Notes under the pieces: generated by a model
Seen by the model: the letters and a program-made list of their open reading frames with translations, nothing else
Told to the model about the DNA's origin: nothing
The model's database searches: none
NCBI RefSeq assembly: GCF_001998885.1
Contig: NZ_CP019609.1
Span: 1,290,001-1,354,000 of the forward strand
Source of the DNA: Vagococcus penaei
GTDB lineage: Bacteria; Bacillota; Bacilli; Lactobacillales; Vagococcaceae
Length of the DNA: 64,000 bases
Direction of reading: 5' to 3'
Position numbers and translations under genes: made by a program
Shown here: positions 3,960-47,502 of the stretch, piece by piece
How positions within the stretch are numbered: the first letter of the stretch is position 1
How the letters are laid out: each line of letters starts with the position of its first letter

Positions 3960-4031
3960 TGACCCGTACGGGAATCGAACCCGTGTTACCGCCGTGAAAG
4001 GGCGGTGTCTTAACCGCTTGACCAACGGGCC
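3960..4031 (-). tRNA. tRNA-Glu(UUC), copy 2
   Basis: Cloverleaf with acceptor GGCCCGT/ACGGGTC and anticodon TTC in a CTTTCAC loop. The CCA end is not encoded. Last gene of the tRNA array and last member of the second repeated block. Confidence 0.96.
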
Positions 4032-4072
4032 TAGATAAAAAATATTTTATTATTAATAGAGAAAACTTAATA

Positions 4073-4160
4073 TGGAGAAGGAGGGATTTGAACCCTCGCG
4101 CCAGTTTCCCGACCTACACCCTTAGCAGGGGCGCCTCTTCAGCCACTTGAGTACTTCTCC
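4073..4160 (-). tRNA. tRNA-Ser(GCU), copy 2
   Basis: 88-nt class II tRNA with a long variable arm, acceptor GGAGAAG/CTTCTCC and anticodon GCT. Same sequence as the copy at 4800-4887. Confidence 0.96.
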
Positions 4161-4173
4161 ATCCTTAAAATAA

Positions 4174-4247
<74 letters not shown>

Positions 4248-4262
4248 TAATTTTTAAAGAAA

Positions 4263-4333
4263 AGCGGGTGACGAGAATCGAACTCGCGACAACAGCTTGG
4301 AAGGCTGTAGTTTTACCACTAAACTACACCCGC
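4263..4333 (-). tRNA. tRNA-Gly(UCC), copy 2
   Basis: 71-nt cloverleaf, acceptor GCGGGTG/CACCCGC, anticodon TCC in a CTTCCAA loop. Same as the copy at 4990-5060. Confidence 0.96.
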
Positions 4334-4347
4334 TTAATGGATTTGGA

Positions 4348-4420
4348 TGGCGCAGGACAGAATCGAACTGCCGACACACGGAGCTTCAATCCGTTGCTCT
4401 ACCAACTGAGCTACTGCGCC
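4348..4420 (-). tRNA. tRNA-Phe(GAA)
   Basis: 73-nt cloverleaf, acceptor GGCGCAG/CTGCGCC, anticodon GAA in a TTGAAGC loop. It is the only tRNA of this repeated block that has no counterpart in the other copy of the block. Confidence 0.95.
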
Positions 4421-4425
4421 TAAAA

Positions 4426-4498
4426 CGGTCCCGACGGGATTTGAACCCGCGATCTCCTGCGTGACAGGCAGGCATGTTAACCCCTACACCACGGAACC
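4426..4498 (-). tRNA. tRNA-Asp(GUC), copy 2
   Basis: 73-nt cloverleaf, acceptor GGTTCCG/CGGGACC, anticodon GTC in a CTGTCAC loop. Same as the copy at 5066-5138. Confidence 0.96.
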
Positions 4499-4501
4499 TA
4501 A

Positions 4502-4575
<74 letters not shown>

Positions 4576-4586
4576 ATATTTTTAAA

Positions 4587-4676
4587 AGGAGGATAAGGGA
4601 TTCGAACCCTTGCGTGCTTTTACACACCTGACGGTTTTCAAGACCGTTCCCTTCAGCCGGACTTGGGTAATCCTCC
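4587..4676 (-). tRNA. tRNA-Ser(UGA), copy 2
   Basis: 90-nt class II tRNA with a long variable arm, acceptor GGAGGAT/ATCCTCC, anticodon TGA in a CTTGAAA loop. Same as 5227-5316. Confidence 0.95.
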
Positions 4677-4686
4677 GAAATGCTAA

Positions 4687-4758
4687 TGACCCGTACGGGA
4701 ATCGAACCCGTGTTACCGCCGTGAAAGGGCGGTGTCTTAACCGCTTGACCAACGGGCC
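4687..4758 (-). tRNA. tRNA-Glu(UUC), copy 1
   Basis: 72-nt gene matching the copy at 3960-4031 with anticodon TTC. It closes the first repeated block. Confidence 0.96.
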
Positions 4759-4799
4759 AGACTGAATAAATTAAGTTAAATTAATGATATAAATCATTA

Positions 4800-4887
4800 T
4801 GGAGAAGGAGGGATTTGAACCCTCGCGCCAGTTTCCCGACCTACACCCTTAGCAGGGGCGCCTCTTCAGCCACTTGAGTACTTCTCC
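4800..4887 (-). tRNA. tRNA-Ser(GCU), copy 1
   Basis: 88-nt class II tRNA, anticodon GCT; matches 4073-4160. Confidence 0.96.
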
Positions 4888-4900
4888 ATCCTTAAAATAA

Positions 4901-4974
<74 letters not shown>

Positions 4975-4989
4975 TAATTTTTAAAGAAA

Positions 4990-5060
4990 AGCGGGTGACG
5001 AGAATCGAACTCGCGACAACAGCTTGGAAGGCTGTAGTTTTACCACTAAACTACACCCGC
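4990..5060 (-). tRNA. tRNA-Gly(UCC), copy 1
   Basis: 71-nt cloverleaf, anticodon TCC. In this copy tRNA-Asp is the direct neighbour; the Phe gene found between them in the other block is missing. Confidence 0.96.
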
Positions 5061-5065
5061 TTAAA

Positions 5066-5138
5066 CGGTCCCGACGGGATTTGAACCCGCGATCTCCTGC
5101 GTGACAGGCAGGCATGTTAACCCCTACACCACGGAACC
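5066..5138 (-). tRNA. tRNA-Asp(GUC), copy 1
   Basis: 73-nt cloverleaf, anticodon GTC; matches 4426-4498. Confidence 0.96.
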
Positions 5139-5141
5139 TAA

Positions 5142-5215
<74 letters not shown>

Positions 5216-5226
5216 ATATTTTTAAA

Positions 5227-5316
5227 AGGAGGATAAGGGATTCGAACCCTTGCGTGCTTTTACACACCTGACGGTTTTCAAGACCGTTCCCTTCAGCCGG
5301 ACTTGGGTAATCCTCC
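5227..5316 (-). tRNA. tRNA-Ser(UGA), copy 1
   Basis: 90-nt class II tRNA, anticodon TGA; matches 4587-4676. First gene of the repeated block in transcript order. Confidence 0.95.
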
Positions 5317-5351
5317 ATAATATTAGCAAAAACCATACAATTCCATAACAA

Positions 5352-5425
5352 TGGACCTTGTAGGACTCGAACCTACGACCGCCCGGTTATGAGCCGGGAG
5401 CTCTAACCAACTGAGCTAAAGGTCC
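5352..5425 (-). tRNA. tRNA with CAU anticodon, probably tRNA-Ile2 (lysidine-modified)
   Basis: 74-nt cloverleaf, acceptor GGACCTT/AAGGTCC, anticodon arm GGCTCATAACC. It lacks the initiator C1-A72 mismatch and differs from the elongator Met type next to it. Its body resembles the Gram-positive AUA-reading Ile2 tRNA, whose C34 is converted to lysidine by TilS. Identity rests on family memory. Confidence 0.8.
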
Positions 5426-5438
5426 AAGTTATAAATTA

Positions 5439-5512
5439 TCGCGGCGGAGGGGATCGAACCCCCGACCTCCCGGGTATGAACCGGACGCTCTAGCCAGCTG
5501 AGCTACACCGCG
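5439..5512 (-). tRNA. Elongator tRNA-Met(CAU)
   Basis: 74-nt cloverleaf, acceptor CGCGGTG/CGCCGCG, anticodon CAT in the arm GGTTCATACCC, typical of Gram-positive elongator Met. Confidence 0.88.
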
Positions 5513-5521
5513 TAATTAAAA

Positions 5522-5595
5522 TCGGGAAGACAGGATTCGAACCTGCGACCCCTTGGTCCCAAACCAAGTGCTCTACCAAGCTGAGCTACTTCCCG
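5522..5595 (-). tRNA. tRNA-Pro(UGG)
   Basis: 74-nt cloverleaf, acceptor CGGGAAG/CTTCCCG, anticodon TGG in a TTTGGGA loop. Confidence 0.95.
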
Positions 5596-5607
5596 TAAAA
5601 AAGGTGA

Positions 5608-5681
5608 CGCACCCAAGAGGAGTCGAACCCCTAACCTTCTGATCCGTAGTCAGACACTCTATCCAATTGAGCTATGGGTGC
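5608..5681 (-). tRNA. tRNA-Arg(ACG)
   Basis: 74-nt cloverleaf, acceptor GCACCCA/TGGGTGC, anticodon ACG in a CTACGGA loop; A34 would be deaminated to inosine. Confidence 0.95.
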
Positions 5682-5692
5682 TTAAAAAGCAA

Positions 5693-5778
5693 TGCCGAGG
5701 ACCGGAATCGAACCGGTACGGTGATCACTCACCGCAGGATTTTAAGTCCTGTGCGTCTGCCAGTTCCGCCACCCCGGC
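5693..5778 (-). tRNA. tRNA-Leu(UAA)
   Basis: 86-nt class II tRNA with a long variable arm, acceptor GCCGGGG/CCTCGGC, anticodon TAA in a CTTAAAA loop. Confidence 0.95.
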
Positions 5779-5789
5779 TGGAACATAAA

Positions 5790-5861
5790 AGCGGAAGACG
5801 GGGTTCGAACCCGCGACCCCCACCTTGGCAAGGTGATGTTCTACCACTGAACTACTTCCGC
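5790..5861 (-). tRNA. tRNA-Gly(GCC)
   Basis: 72-nt cloverleaf, acceptor GCGGAAG/CTTCCGC, anticodon GCC in a TTGCCAA loop. Confidence 0.95.
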
Positions 5862-5873
5862 TTAGAAATAGAA

Positions 5874-5946
5874 TGCCGGCTAAAGGACTTGAACCCTCGA
5901 CCCTCTGATTACAAATCAGATGCTCTACCAACTGAGCTAAGCCGGC
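5874..5946 (-). tRNA. tRNA-Thr(UGU)
   Basis: 73-nt cloverleaf, acceptor GCCGGCT/AGCCGGC, anticodon TGT in a TTTGTAA loop. Confidence 0.95.
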
Positions 5947-5958
5947 TGTAACTTCTTA

Positions 5959-6040
5959 TGCGGGTGAAGGGACTTGAACCCCCACGCCGTAAGGCGCTAG
6001 ATCCTAAATCTAGTGCGTCTGCCAATTCCGCCACACCCGC
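5959..6040 (-). tRNA. tRNA-Leu(UAG)
   Basis: 82-nt class II tRNA, acceptor GCGGGTG/CACCCGC, anticodon TAG in a TTTAGGA loop. Confidence 0.95.
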
Positions 6041-6045
6041 AAAAA

Positions 6046-6118
6046 TGACCCGTACTGGGCTCGAACCAGTGACCCTCTGATTAAAAGTCAGATGCTCTAC
6101 CAACTGAGCTAACGAGTC
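6046..6118 (-). tRNA. tRNA-Lys(UUU)
   Basis: 73-nt cloverleaf, acceptor GACTCGT/ACGGGTC with one G-U pair, anticodon TTT in a CTTTTAA loop. Confidence 0.95.
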
Positions 6119-6128
6119 TAATTTAAAA

Positions 6129-6201
6129 TGGAGGTTGACGGGATCGAACCGCCGACCCCCTGCTTGTAAGGCAGGTGCTCTCCCAGCTGAGCTAAACCTC
6201 C
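6129..6201 (-). tRNA. tRNA-Val(UAC)
   Basis: 73-nt cloverleaf, acceptor GGAGGTT/AACCTCC, anticodon TAC in a CTTACAA loop. First tRNA after 5S rRNA. Confidence 0.95.
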
Positions 6202-38967: not shown

Positions 38968-41502
38968 ATGTCTGAGGAACTAAGAAGTAATATACAAGAT
39001 GTCAATTTGACTGAAGAAATGCAGACATCGTTTATTGACTATGCAATGAGTGTTATCGTGTCTCGTGCATTGCCCGATGTTAGAGATGGCTTGAAGCCTG
39101 TTCACCGCCGTATTTTATATGGGATGAACGAGATGGGTGTAACACCTGATAAAGCCCATAAAAAATCAGCCCGGATTGTTGGGGATGTCATGGGTAAGTA
39201 TCATCCCCATGGTGATAGTGCAATCTATGAATCAATGGTCCGAATGGCGCAACCATTTAGTTACCGTCAAATGCTTGTCGATGGCCACGGAAACTTTGGC
39301 TCAGTCGATGGTGATGGTGCAGCTGCGATGCGTTATACCGAAGCTCGTATGAGTAAAATTGCCGTTGAAATGTTACGTGATATTAATAAAAATACGGTTG
39401 ATTTTCAAAATAACTATGATGAAACAGAACGTGAACCCGCTGTTTTACCTGCTCGTTTTCCAAACTTACTAGTTAATGGAACAACAGGTATTGCAGTTGG
39501 GATGGCGACTAATATTCCACCTCATAATTTGGGTGAAGTGGTAGATGCAATTCAGTTATTAATGGCAAATCGTGAGGTGACGACTGCTGAATTAATGGAA
39601 GTTTTACCTGGACCAGATTTTCCAACTGGTGCATTAGTGATGGGAAAATCGGGGATTCGTAAAGCTTATGAAACCGGTAAAGGTAAAATTATTGTTCGGG
39701 CAAAAGTTGAAATTGAAGAAAAAGCTAATGGTAAAGAACGTATTATTGTCACAGAAATTCCTTACATGGTCAATAAAGCCAAATTGGTAGAGCGAATTGC
39801 TGAATTACACCGTGAAAAACGTGTGGAAGGCATTACGCAATTACGTGATGAATCGTCACGTAAAGGGATGCGGATTGTAATTGATATTCGTCGAGATGTT
39901 AGTGCAACTGTCGTTTTAAATAATCTGTATAAATTAACGTCACTACAAACAAGTTTTGGTTTTAATATGTTGGCGATTGTGAATGGTATTCCTCAAGTGT
40001 TGAGCTTAAAATCAATTTTAGAACACTATTTAGCTCACCAAGAAGAAGTGATTGTTCGGCGAACAGAATTTGATAAAGCAAAAGCAGAGGCCCGTGCTCA
40101 TATTCTAGAAGGCTTGCGGATTGCATTAGATCATATTGATGAGATTATTCGAATTATTCGTTCTTCAAAAGCAGATGATATTGCGAAACAAGCATTGATT
40201 GAGACATTTAAATTATCTGACCGTCAAGCACAAGCTATTTTAGATATGCGTTTACGCCGTTTAACTGGTTTGGAGCGTGAGAAAATTGAAAATGAATACC
40301 AAGAACTATTGGCATTCATTGAAGACATGGCCGATATTTTAGCGAACCATCAGCGTGTATTAGAAATTATCAGCACGGAGTTAGACGAAATTAAGCGTAA
40401 ATATAGTGATGCTCGTCGTACTGAATTATTAGTAGGTGAGTTATTAAGTCTTGAAGACGAAGATTTAATCGAAGAAGAAGATGTCGTCATTACTTTGACA
40501 AATAATGGTTATATCAAGCGAATGGCTAGTTCAGAATTTAGAACACAGCACCGTGGCGGTCGTGGTGTCCAAGGTATGGGCGTTCATGATGATGATTTTG
40601 TTGAAAATCTGGTATCATGTTCAACTCACGATAGTCTATTATTCTTTACTGATACTGGAAAAGTTTATCGAGCAAAAGGGTACGAAATTCCAGAATATGG
40701 TCGGACAGCGAAAGGCATTCCAATTATTAATTTATTGGGAATTGATTCGTCAGAAAATATTGAAGCGATTATTAACATTGCTGGTAAAGCTGAAGCAGAT
40801 GAATACTTGTTCTTTACGACAAAACTTGGAACAGTTAAACGGACATCGGTGAAGGAATTTGCTAATATTCGTACTAATGGACTAAAAGCAATTGGCCTAA
40901 AAGAAGGCGACTCACTAATTAATGTCGCGTTAACTAATGGTGAACAGACAATGATTATTGGAACGCATAAAGGCTACTCTGTCACGTTCAATGAACAAGC
41001 AGTTCGTGCAATGGGCCGGACGGCAGCCGGTGTGCGAGGTATTCGTTTAAGAGAAGATGATTATGTGATTGGTATGGATTTACTATCACCTGATAGTGAA
41101 GTCCTAATTATCACTGAAAATGGTTATGGTAAACGAACGGCTGCGAAAGAATACCCAATCAAAGGTCGTGGTGGTAAAGGAATTAAAACAGCGAACGTTA
41201 CTGCTAAAAATGGTCCTTTAGCTGGTTTAACCACTGTAACTGGTGAGGAAGATATTTTATTAGTGACGAACCGTGGCGTCATTATTCGTTTTGGTGTTGA
41301 ATCAGTCTCACAAACTGGTCGCTCGACACAAGGTGTCCGTCTTATTCGTTTAGAAGAAGATGCGATTGTTTCCACAATGGCTAAAGTAGATCCAGAAGAA
41401 ATTGAAGAAGTCATTGAAGAAATAGATACGCTGATTGTAACCGATGAACAAATAAGTGATACAGAAAATGAGCTAACGACAACTGACTCAACTGAGGAAT
41501 AA
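38968..41502 (+). CDS. gyrA: DNA gyrase subunit A
   Basis: The 844-residue GyrA cuts and rejoins DNA. The catalytic Tyr is in [11 protein letters not shown] near residue 123, the quinolone-resistance region reads [17 protein letters not shown] with wild-type-like Ser and Glu, and the C-terminal beta-pinwheel includes the GyrA box ([10 protein letters not shown]). The acidic tail ([10 protein letters not shown]...) is common in Lactobacillales. The start follows ATAAGGAGAG. A strong hairpin ends the operon. Confidence 0.98.
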
Positions 41503-45554: not shown

Positions 45555-46865
45555 TCAGTCACCGACTATTGACTTAACACCAAAATATTTTGCCATCCAT
45601 ACATTAAACCAGGCATTTTTAGAAGGATGTAGATTTGCTGTTCCATTGTATGGATTATATAGTGATTTAGAGGGTGTCAATCTTTTTAAGACAACCGAAT
45701 CGTTCGGACTAGATTTTTTTAAAATGTTTAGTTGTTGATTGACTTCTCTAGTATTGATTGCAATATCTGAGAAAGCCTTAAAGTAAATAAAGCCTGATAC
45801 TAAGAGTATTAAAAAAGTACCAAAAAGCTGTAATTTAATTATTTGATAGCACATATTTAGTAAGTAAGCTAAAATGATGATTAGTAACATTGACGATATA
45901 AATAAAGTCCTTAGAGGAACTTCAGGAGACAATATTAAGCTATAAATTGAAGAAAAATAACCAATTAGCAATATCGTTAGATAATAGATATTAGTTTTCT
46001 TCATTTTTTTAGTAAGGACCAAGTAGATAATTAAACTAATAATCATGATATATAGATAGATAAATTGCGACAATGTGAGTTGAGTGATCATCTTAAAATG
46101 TTGTATTAAAATTTCTGGTGTAATGTCCATGGCCCCACGTTTCAGTGAACCTGGGGACTTCATCATTAACATAAAACCCAAACTTGATGACAGTATGCCT
46201 GTTATTCTCCACACACTAATTTTTTTATTATTTAATAAACTCCAAAATAGTAATAAGATGGCTATTATTATAATTGTTGGTCCACTATTTTCGTTAGTTG
46301 CTCCCGATAAAAAACCTAAAATAATGGACACAGTTAAAGTTAGTAGATTCGTTTGATAGCTTTGTAGATTAAATAAAAGGAATCCAAGGTATATTAACGA
46401 TGTCCACAAATAATTTGCTGAACCTGACATCCAAAGTACTGTTTTACCAAATTCAGGAATAAACAACCATAATAATAAAAGTATTTGTAAAGTTAATAAA
46501 TTTTTATTCTTTAATCTATTTGTTGATTTGGTGATACCTAAAATAAGAATTGCTACTGCTAAAAATGCTAGACTATTAAAAATATTAAATATAGCTTTAT
46601 TAAATTGCATAAAAAATTGGAGTATAGAATGAGCGACAAATCGACCATTCCACACGGTATAATGTCTTATTTTTGACCGAATAATTGACTGCCAGCCACT
46701 GATTTTTTCAAGATGTTCTGTGGGAAATGGTTCTTTATAAACATAATGATAGATGTAGTCATCAGACGTAAAAAATGTTAGATTGTTCAATAATAATAGT
46801 AAAAAAAAGAATAGTATGAGTATTCCCCAAAAAAATATTTTATCTTTTTTATTATTCATATTCAC
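45555..46865 (-). CDS. Polytopic membrane protein, DUF6056-like
   Basis: A 436-residue protein with about eleven hydrophobic segments. After the first helix comes an external loop with FFTSDDYIYHYVY and later YTVWNGRFVAH; an acidic SDD pair after helix 1 followed by a conserved WNGR block is the pattern I associate with DUF6056/GT-C-like membrane glycosyltransferase relatives. The C terminus has a soluble segment (NGTANLHPSKNAWFNVW). The transferase role is an inference from architecture. No glycan biosynthesis genes are adjacent. Confidence 0.6.
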   Translation of the reverse strand: MNMNNKKDKIFFWGILILFFFLLLLLNNLTFFTSDDYIYHYVYKEPFPTEHLEKISGWQSIIRSKIRHYTVWNGRFVAHSILQFFMQFNKAIFNIFNSLAFLAVAILILGITKSTNRLKNKNLLTLQILLLLWLFIPEFGKTVLWMSGSANYLWTSLIYLGFLLFNLQSYQTNLLTLTVSIILGFLSGATNENSGPTIIIIAILLLFWSLLNNKKISVWRITGILSSSLGFMLMMKSPGSLKRGAMDITPEILIQHFKMITQLTLSQFIYLYIMIISLIIYLVLTKKMKKTNIYYLTILLIGYFSSIYSLILSPEVPLRTLFISSMLLIIILAYLLNMCYQIIKLQLFGTFLILLVSGFIYFKAFSDIAINTREVNQQLNILKKSSPNDSVVLKRLTPSKSLYNPYNGTANLHPSKNAWFNVWMAKYFGVKSIVGD

Positions 46866-46973
46866 GAGACTCCTTTAATAAATAATTAAAGTAACAATAA
46901 CATAATATTTTGTCTAATTAAATAAAATTTCTGTTCTTTTTATACATAAAAGTAGACATTTTTAAAAAAACGC

Positions 46974-47002
46974 TTCCATTTTTATAATAATCATGCTATA
47001 AT
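46974..47002 (+). promoter_or_regulatory. Promoter of the 41-codon gene transcript
   Basis: An extended -10 element TGCTATAAT (TATAAT at 46997-47002) with a poor -35 (TTCCAT at 46974) 17 bp upstream. Confidence 0.6.
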
Positions 47003-47008
47003 ACGAAG

Positions 47009-47085
47009 TGTAAGGGATAGAAGTCCCCCATGAGGTGATCCACTGAAGACTGAGTAATTTAGAAGGTTGCAAGAGGAGAAAACTT
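47009..47085 (+). ncRNA. Structured leader of the 41-codon gene
   Basis: The leader starts near 47009 and is about 77 nt long. It contains GGGA/TCCC (47013-47027) and further short complementary segments before the AGAGGAG ribosome-binding site. Whether the whole 280-nt transcript acts as an mRNA, a regulatory RNA or both cannot be decided by reading. Confidence 0.4.
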
Positions 47086-47211
47086 ATGGATAGTATGTAC
47101 GAAGAAGGCTACATACATCTTGCAAAGAAACAAGAAGATGAGTACGTACAAGAGAAGGAGCGTGGGGATGTGTCATATTCCTTACAGGTAAAGGATTTGC
47201 CTAGCAATTAG
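47086..47211 (+). CDS. Putative small protein, 41 residues
   Basis: ATG 47086 follows AAGAGGAGAAAACTT, an excellent ribosome-binding site, and opens MDSMYEEGYIHLAKKQEDEY; the last residues are VKDLPSN. The composition is acidic and hydrophilic, with no membrane segment. The stop codon lies inside the ascending arm of the terminator hairpin (47200-47289), so translation to the end would affect hairpin folding. The codon region itself can fold (GTATGTA/TACATAC at 47095-47120). No family is recognised. Confidence 0.5.
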   Translation: MDSMYEEGYIHLAKKQEDEYVQEKERGDVSYSLQVKDLPSN

Positions 47212-47289
47212 TTAACGCAGTCATGAACAGTTAAGCAGTAAGGTATCATTGTTCAAAGTTAACGTGATAATTGCTAGGTTATTTTTTTT
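47200..47289 (+). terminator. Long terminator hairpin after the 41-codon gene
   Basis: Outer stem CCTAGCAATTA / TAATTGCTAGG, inner stems GTTAAC/GTTAAC and TGAACA/TGTTCA, then TTATTTTTTTT. The arms are interrupted by small loops, giving an unusually long (79-nt) extended hairpin. About 200 bp of AT-rich DNA without a gene follows before the rpsF leader. Confidence 0.8.
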
Positions 47290-47429: not shown

Positions 47430-47494
47430 GTAGACAGGTAAGTTTACTTTCCTTGTTCCTATATTTTTTAGGAACCTTAAGTCCATAAGGAGGT
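47430..47494 (+). promoter_or_regulatory. rpsF leader, candidate S6:S18-binding motif
   Basis: The leader holds GTTCCTA/TAGGAAC (47454-47475) and CCTTA/TAAGG around AGTCCA (47474-47490), next to the AGGAGG ribosome-binding site. A hairpin here is consistent with S6:S18 autoregulation known from rpsF leaders, but the exact consensus was not verified. Confidence 0.4.
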
Positions 47495-47502
47495 GAAAAT
47501 CA

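Follow-up and report, generated by a model that had tools for sequence, protein, structure and literature searches.

A short element between gyrA and rpsF of Vagococcus penaei raises the question of whether this locus makes a peptide, a regulatory RNA or both. It lies in a stretch of 64,000 nucleotides, which we analysed as a whole and call the window, and an earlier note made from the letters of this stretch read it as a 41-codon gene embedded in a structured, self-contained transcript, either a translated small protein or a dual-function regulatory RNA. The extended –10 promoter, near-ideal ribosome-binding site, single short frame and interrupted terminator that it described are all present (Table 1), and the stop codon of the frame (TAG, 47209-47211) does lie inside the ascending arm of the terminator (47200-47216). 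The full RNA (47004-47289) folds better than all 200 of 200 dinucleotide shuffles (z –4.5), so that the structure is more than chance. The terminator escaped a simple terminator scan, whose limit on loop length it exceeds. Two elements of the proposed gene lie within this transcript, the Shine-Dalgarno sequence AGAGGAG (47072-47078), 7 nt before the ATG at 47086, and the ATG itself, which is included in the 3' strand of P3 (CUUAUGG, 47083-47089). Judged by comparison with its relatives, the element is a copy of a non-coding RNA and not a 41-codon gene.

Table 1. Features of the element in the window (positions counted from the first letter of the window).
Feature	Position	Strand	Remarks
cre-like box AAAAAACGCTTCCA	46965-46978	+	over the –35 region; presumed CcpA operator
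Extended –10 promoter TGcTATAAT	46994-47002	+	predicted start about 47008
Predicted non-coding RNA	47004-47289	+	core 47004-47194 plus terminator; fold, covariance models
P1 5' strand GUAAGGGAUA	47010-47019	+	partner 47176-47185 UAUUCCUUAC; covariation
P2 5' strand GUCCC	47023-47027	+	partner 47165-47169 GGGAU; 3 of 5 pairs with both-sided changes
P3 5' strand CCAUGAG	47028-47034	+	partner 47083-47089 CUUAUGG; covariation
41-codon frame, judged non-gene	47086-47211	+	V. vulneris comparison, shuffles
P4 hairpin GUAUGUA..UACAUAC	47093-47116	+	loop CGAAGAAGGC; covariation
P2 3' strand	47165-47169	+	covariation
P1 3' strand	47176-47185	+	covariation
Long interrupted terminator	47200-47289	+	CCUAGCAAUUA/UAAUUGCUAGG, inner GUUAAC/GUUAAC, U8

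The only other genome of the genus with a DNA match along the element is that of Vagococcus vulneris SS1995 (G013), where the copy also stands directly before rpsF. The two transcripts have the promoter, P1-P4 and the terminator in common, the stem of the latter changing in step from CCUAGCAAUUA/UAAUUGCUAGG in the window to CCUAGUAAUCA/UGAUUACUAGG in V. vulneris, with two compensatory pairs, and the cre-like box of V. vulneris, AGAAAACGCTTTCT, has an offset identical to that of the window. The upstream neighbours differ, being a DUF6056 gene in the window and a DUF308 gene in V. vulneris; the former encodes a membrane protein and occupies 45555-46865 on the opposite strand.

A first model with an automatic two-sequence structure (R1) was replaced by R2, a core covariance model built from the window and V. 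vulneris sequences, and by its successor R3. Searching with R2 gave three further clear copies (G394, G354 and G421). In a set of four sequences, 10 of 29 pairs had changes on both sides and 98% of cells were paired, a percentage inflated by fitting the alignment to the model structure, and R3 was built from these four. Matches to R3 were present in 38 of 105 genomes of Enterococcaceae and in 41 of 395 of Lactobacillales (training sequences counted in). The E values of model matches in other Lactobacillales genomes went down to 1e-16 to 1e-8. A sample of 399 genomes of the class gave matches in Vagococcaceae and Enterococcaceae alone, and a full copy (L122) is present in one genome (f5) from a further family of Lactobacillales. 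The 55 copies that we placed belong to Vagococcaceae, Enterococcaceae and that one genome. Aligned, these copies show both-sided changes that preserve the pairing at 20 of 29 pairs (0 of 500 shuffles). Cells with both-sided changes numbered 137, whereas shuffles gave 43 and sliding of the partner no more than 22. In this comparison the fit to the model structure favours pairing, but relatedness is unchanged in the slid controls. All seven pairs of P4 had both-sided changes in this set, and the 15 distinct long forms alone had them at 16 of 29 pairs.

Most Enterococcus copies are shorter, without P3 and with P1, P2 and P4 kept; one of the long forms, L067, forms P3 as UAAUUAG/CUAAUUA. The P4 loop often reads CGANGUAGGY in homologues, and most of the homologues inspected have comparable terminators. 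Three false matches (L066, L068 and L060) were rejected on inspection. Comparison of the copies thus shows a structured RNA family that spans Vagococcus and Enterococcus. The window RNA matched no Rfam covariance model above gathering or at relaxed thresholds, none of the copies tested matches Rfam, and searches of Pfam, NCBIfam and PHROGs returned nothing for the 41-aa peptide, in agreement with the statement of the earlier note that neither peptide nor RNA could be placed in a known family. Single members may already figure in enterococcal catalogues of transcripts, the family being unrecognised; the copies between queT and a lipid kinase gene may, for instance, be among the numbered sRNAs listed for E. 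faecalis and E. faecium, such as the conserved pair sRNA_112/sRNA_005 (PMC7724050). The phages, plasmids and viral contigs searched hold no match to the element, and a phage or plasmid origin was rejected; viral matches to the P4 loop were chance ones in coding-like sequence.

The CcpA cre consensus is TGWAARCGYTWNCW, and CcpA normally represses where a cre covers the –35 region. The window's own box, AAAAAACGCTTCCA, has two mismatches to this consensus and is a weak one. Across the family, 48 of 55 copies have a cre with at most two mismatches (2.2 expected from shuffled versions of the same upstream sequences) and 40 have one with at most one mismatch (0.18 expected). The box has an offset of –37, –38 or –39 from the first base of the model in 42 copies and of –28 in 6, two positions one helical turn apart. 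It is missing from the uspA-adjacent copies of G394 and G354, from L078 (diverged upstream), from L112 and from three promoterless copies in G002. In most homologues TGnTATAAW and GTGTAAGG are as far apart as in the window, and most copies inspected begin GUGUAAGG, a few bases past the extended –10; for the copies in the gap between queT and the lipid kinase gene the predicted transcript start is AGUGUAAGG. A cre-bearing promoter conserved across the family is likewise shown by this comparison of upstream sequences.

The best explanation of the element, and in our judgement a probable one, is a CcpA-repressed, trans-acting regulatory RNA that is made when the preferred sugar runs out. We infer its transcription, its repression by CcpA, its action in trans and its targets as follows. 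The locus would produce a stand-alone, untranslated, non-coding regulatory RNA of about 280 nt, in which a long-range P1/P2 stem joins the 5' end of the core to its 3' end, enclosing one or two hairpins, with the long terminator after it. While the preferred sugar is present, CcpA and HPr-Ser-P would block transcription at the cre over the –35 region; upon sugar depletion or entry into stationary phase this repression would be released, and the RNA would then act in trans. Its likeliest mode of action would be base-pairing with mRNAs for carbon metabolism or the cell surface. The strength of the fold, the fact that V. vulneris keeps the fold and not the frame, the covariation, the cre boxes at fixed spacings and the changing gene contexts speak for this explanation, as do the parallels with 6S RNA and Ref19C described below, and the weakness of the window's cre and the three promoterless G002 copies speak against it.

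These G002 copies, which are the 3' ends of a gene for a 31-aa peptide, also bear on a possible but rather unlikely alternative, namely that the RNA serves as a scaffold for protein binding or processing, such as a sponge or stability element, and does not regulate by base-pairing, its promoterless copies being 3'-UTR uses. Consistent with a scaffold, conservation is far stronger in the structure than in any single-stranded seed, with strong covariation in P1, P2 and P4; however, the conserved P4 loop CGANGUAGGY looks like a seed in many copies, and nearly every copy has a regulated promoter of its own, as a regulator would. The G002 locus itself (L111:2300-4300, G002:C1:260800-262800) consists of three tandem repeats of ~560 bp, each with a Shine-Dalgarno sequence, a 31-aa peptide MINLFKVLAADIKAGMLMRLNGISFKDAHIV whose last residues vary, and a promoterless RNA copy with its terminator. 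The repeats adjoin an ABC transporter and pieces of a radical SAM/SPASM gene that is apparently broken, and the whole looks like a peptide natural-product cluster with the RNA as 3' UTR. Because these copies are promoterless and stand behind a short peptide gene, the RNA module may have another use, for example as a 3'-UTR element. A separate 33-bp match in G002 (L003) covers only the promoter and first bases, and the type I toxin-antitoxin reading it raised was rejected, the match being judged unrelated; at the site (L003:1501-1800, G002:C2) a short RNA that has a promoter of its own faces a small hydrophobic frame of about 35 aa, LESILAIAIPIVGLITAIVNLVKAIVEAKKEQKK, an arrangement that resembles a type I toxin-antitoxin pair.

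It is improbable that the CcpA-repressed RNA proposed here is a diverged copy of one already known, such as 6S RNA, Ern0160/Ref19C or an Rfam sRNA, no Rfam family being found even at the relaxed thresholds. The 6S RNA of lactic acid bacteria is, like the window RNA, non-coding and in many Enterococcaceae has a cre over the –35 region that is regarded as inhibitory, the same arrangement as in the window family (PMC8414754). However, the fold of the window RNA differs from the 6S rod, and the only match of RF00013 in the genome is at 1088974-1089163, away from the element, so 6S was rejected along with the Rfam families.

Ern0160, an E. faecium RNA encoded between queA and mgtA, pairs with mRNAs of LysM proteins, and Ref19C (EF0869_EF0871) of E. 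faecalis lies in the same place (PMC12870237); both have been described as intergenic and without an ORF, and as long (362-474 nt, against about 280 for the window RNA). We compared the queA locus of ten genomes, the published RNAs being represented here by locus and not by their own sequences. In eight of these, all enterococcal (L125-L128 and L130-L133), the queA-mgtA gap carries, on the strand opposite queA, an extended –10 and, at a fixed distance of 32 nt upstream of GUG(U/C)AAGGAAGG, a cre box; the sequence reads GUGUAAGGAAGG in seven of the eight and GUGCAAGGAAGG in one. The spacing from cre to GUGUAAGG equals that of the –28 class of the window family, and the extended –10, the GUGUAAGGA 5' end and the stand-alone character are alike, the promoter and the first ~9 nt being common to both. 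However, the core model run on the queA loci of the ten genomes reached about 15 bits at best, which is not significant, and none of the 55 copies was recognised between queA and mgtA. We therefore claim for the queA-mgtA RNA a control and a 5' start in common with the window family, and no membership. For Ref19C, a level of 374 in exponential phase climbs to 119,683 once early stationary phase is reached (PMC3166299), which would fit release from CcpA, and by analogy the same would be expected of the window RNA; CcpA control goes unmentioned in the available portions of the publications on Ern0160/Ref19C.

The 41-codon frame encodes a peptide of 41 aa, MDSMYEEGYIHLAKKQEDEYVQEKERGDVSYSLQVKDLPSN. 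Frames of at least 41 codons starting with ATG occur in 6.3% of 2000 dinucleotide shuffles of the same RNA, and in 15.5% of 2000 when GTG and TTG starts are allowed, so the frame alone is ordinary. The peptide has no convincing match in the genomes of the family. In V. vulneris a 1-nt deletion follows the ATG of the frame and the AGAGGAG Shine-Dalgarno sequence is lost, the fold being retained; the same ATG there reads MDVCTK*, the frame being broken by 1-nt and 8-nt indels. The ATG reads another frame in G394 and G354 than in the window, it is missing in L067 and the other more distant long-form copies inspected, and most family copies are without any long ATG frame. A small protein gene was rejected, the frame being unconserved in relatives and the peptide having no match in Pfam, NCBIfam or PHROGs. 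A dual-function RNA, one transcript that both regulates and encodes a short peptide in the window species, is for the same reasons very unlikely, despite the good spacing of Shine-Dalgarno sequence and ATG in the window and a second such pair, AAGGAG-N7/8-AUG before P1, which is kept in the window, V. vulneris, G394 and G354; the products of this second ATG (MCHIPYR*, a 31-aa peptide or MNRFLTRYKGLTIGEG) are in different frames. SR1 of Bacillus subtilis, which is under CcpA control and contains a frame of about 40 codons, is a tempting parallel, but its peptide is conserved and the window frame is not. Of the original proposal the RNA half stands, backed by the covarying family and the conserved promoter, and the peptide half is unsupported, frame and Shine-Dalgarno sequence being absent from V. 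vulneris; a good Shine-Dalgarno sequence and a 41-codon frame can arise within a structured RNA.

The surroundings of the copies vary. In Enterococcus about 25 copies are flanked by queT, which is usually on the opposite strand, and by a same-strand gene for a YegS/DAGK-type lipid kinase, several are beside uspA and others are scattered, and G394 and G354 each have a standard copy plus a window-like copy next to uspA. The window copy stands before rpsF in a stretch that is accessory, as the earlier note stated: rpsF directly follows gyrA in several relatives, and here some 6 kb separate gyrA (38968-41502) from rpsF (from 47503). The RNA moves or duplicates among loci, which makes action on a neighbour gene unlikely. 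We rejected, as hardly credible, a role in cis as leader or attenuator for the gene downstream, which is rpsF in the window and mostly the lipid kinase gene in Enterococcus, where most copies are on the same strand and mostly 100-350 nt upstream. The changing gene contexts, with a downstream gene that varies by lineage, argue against it, as do the strong terminator at the end of the RNA, the promoter-like sequence belonging to rpsF itself and the separate rpsF leader, present without the RNA in other genomes of the family. That rpsF leader (47430-47500), GUGAGUAnnn...CUUUCCUUGUUCC..GGAACC..AGUCCAUAAGGAGGUG, is conserved in other genomes of the family, had no Rfam match at the gathering threshold and is probably an S6:S18 autoregulation element. 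Elsewhere in the window, a tRNA cluster (3960-6201) contains an internal near-repeat, the tRNAs at 3960-4676 recurring at 4687-5316 in similar order and with equal scores.

The best-known RNA that works in the way we propose for the window RNA is RsaI (RsaOG) of Staphylococcus aureus, which is repressed by CcpA and released on glucose starvation (PMC9266662). RsaI has known targets and has no sequence or Rfam match with the window RNA, whose family would behave similarly if our reading holds. A catabolite-controlled sRNA is thus known as a kind of thing, and the family itself is absent from Rfam. Few enterococcal sRNAs have been found to be conserved beyond a species or linked to a regulator; here the structure is conserved over two families and the predicted input is CcpA, which suggests that part of enterococcal sugar control may run through RNA. 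More speculatively, the window family and the Ern0160/Ref19C RNAs could form a superfamily derived from one module (a cre, an extended –10 and a GUGUAAGGA 5' strand that a later part of the RNA closes), a tentative idea under which carbon catabolite control in enterococci and vagococci would have an RNA arm with these two branches, the module being also reused as the 3' UTR of tandem peptide genes.
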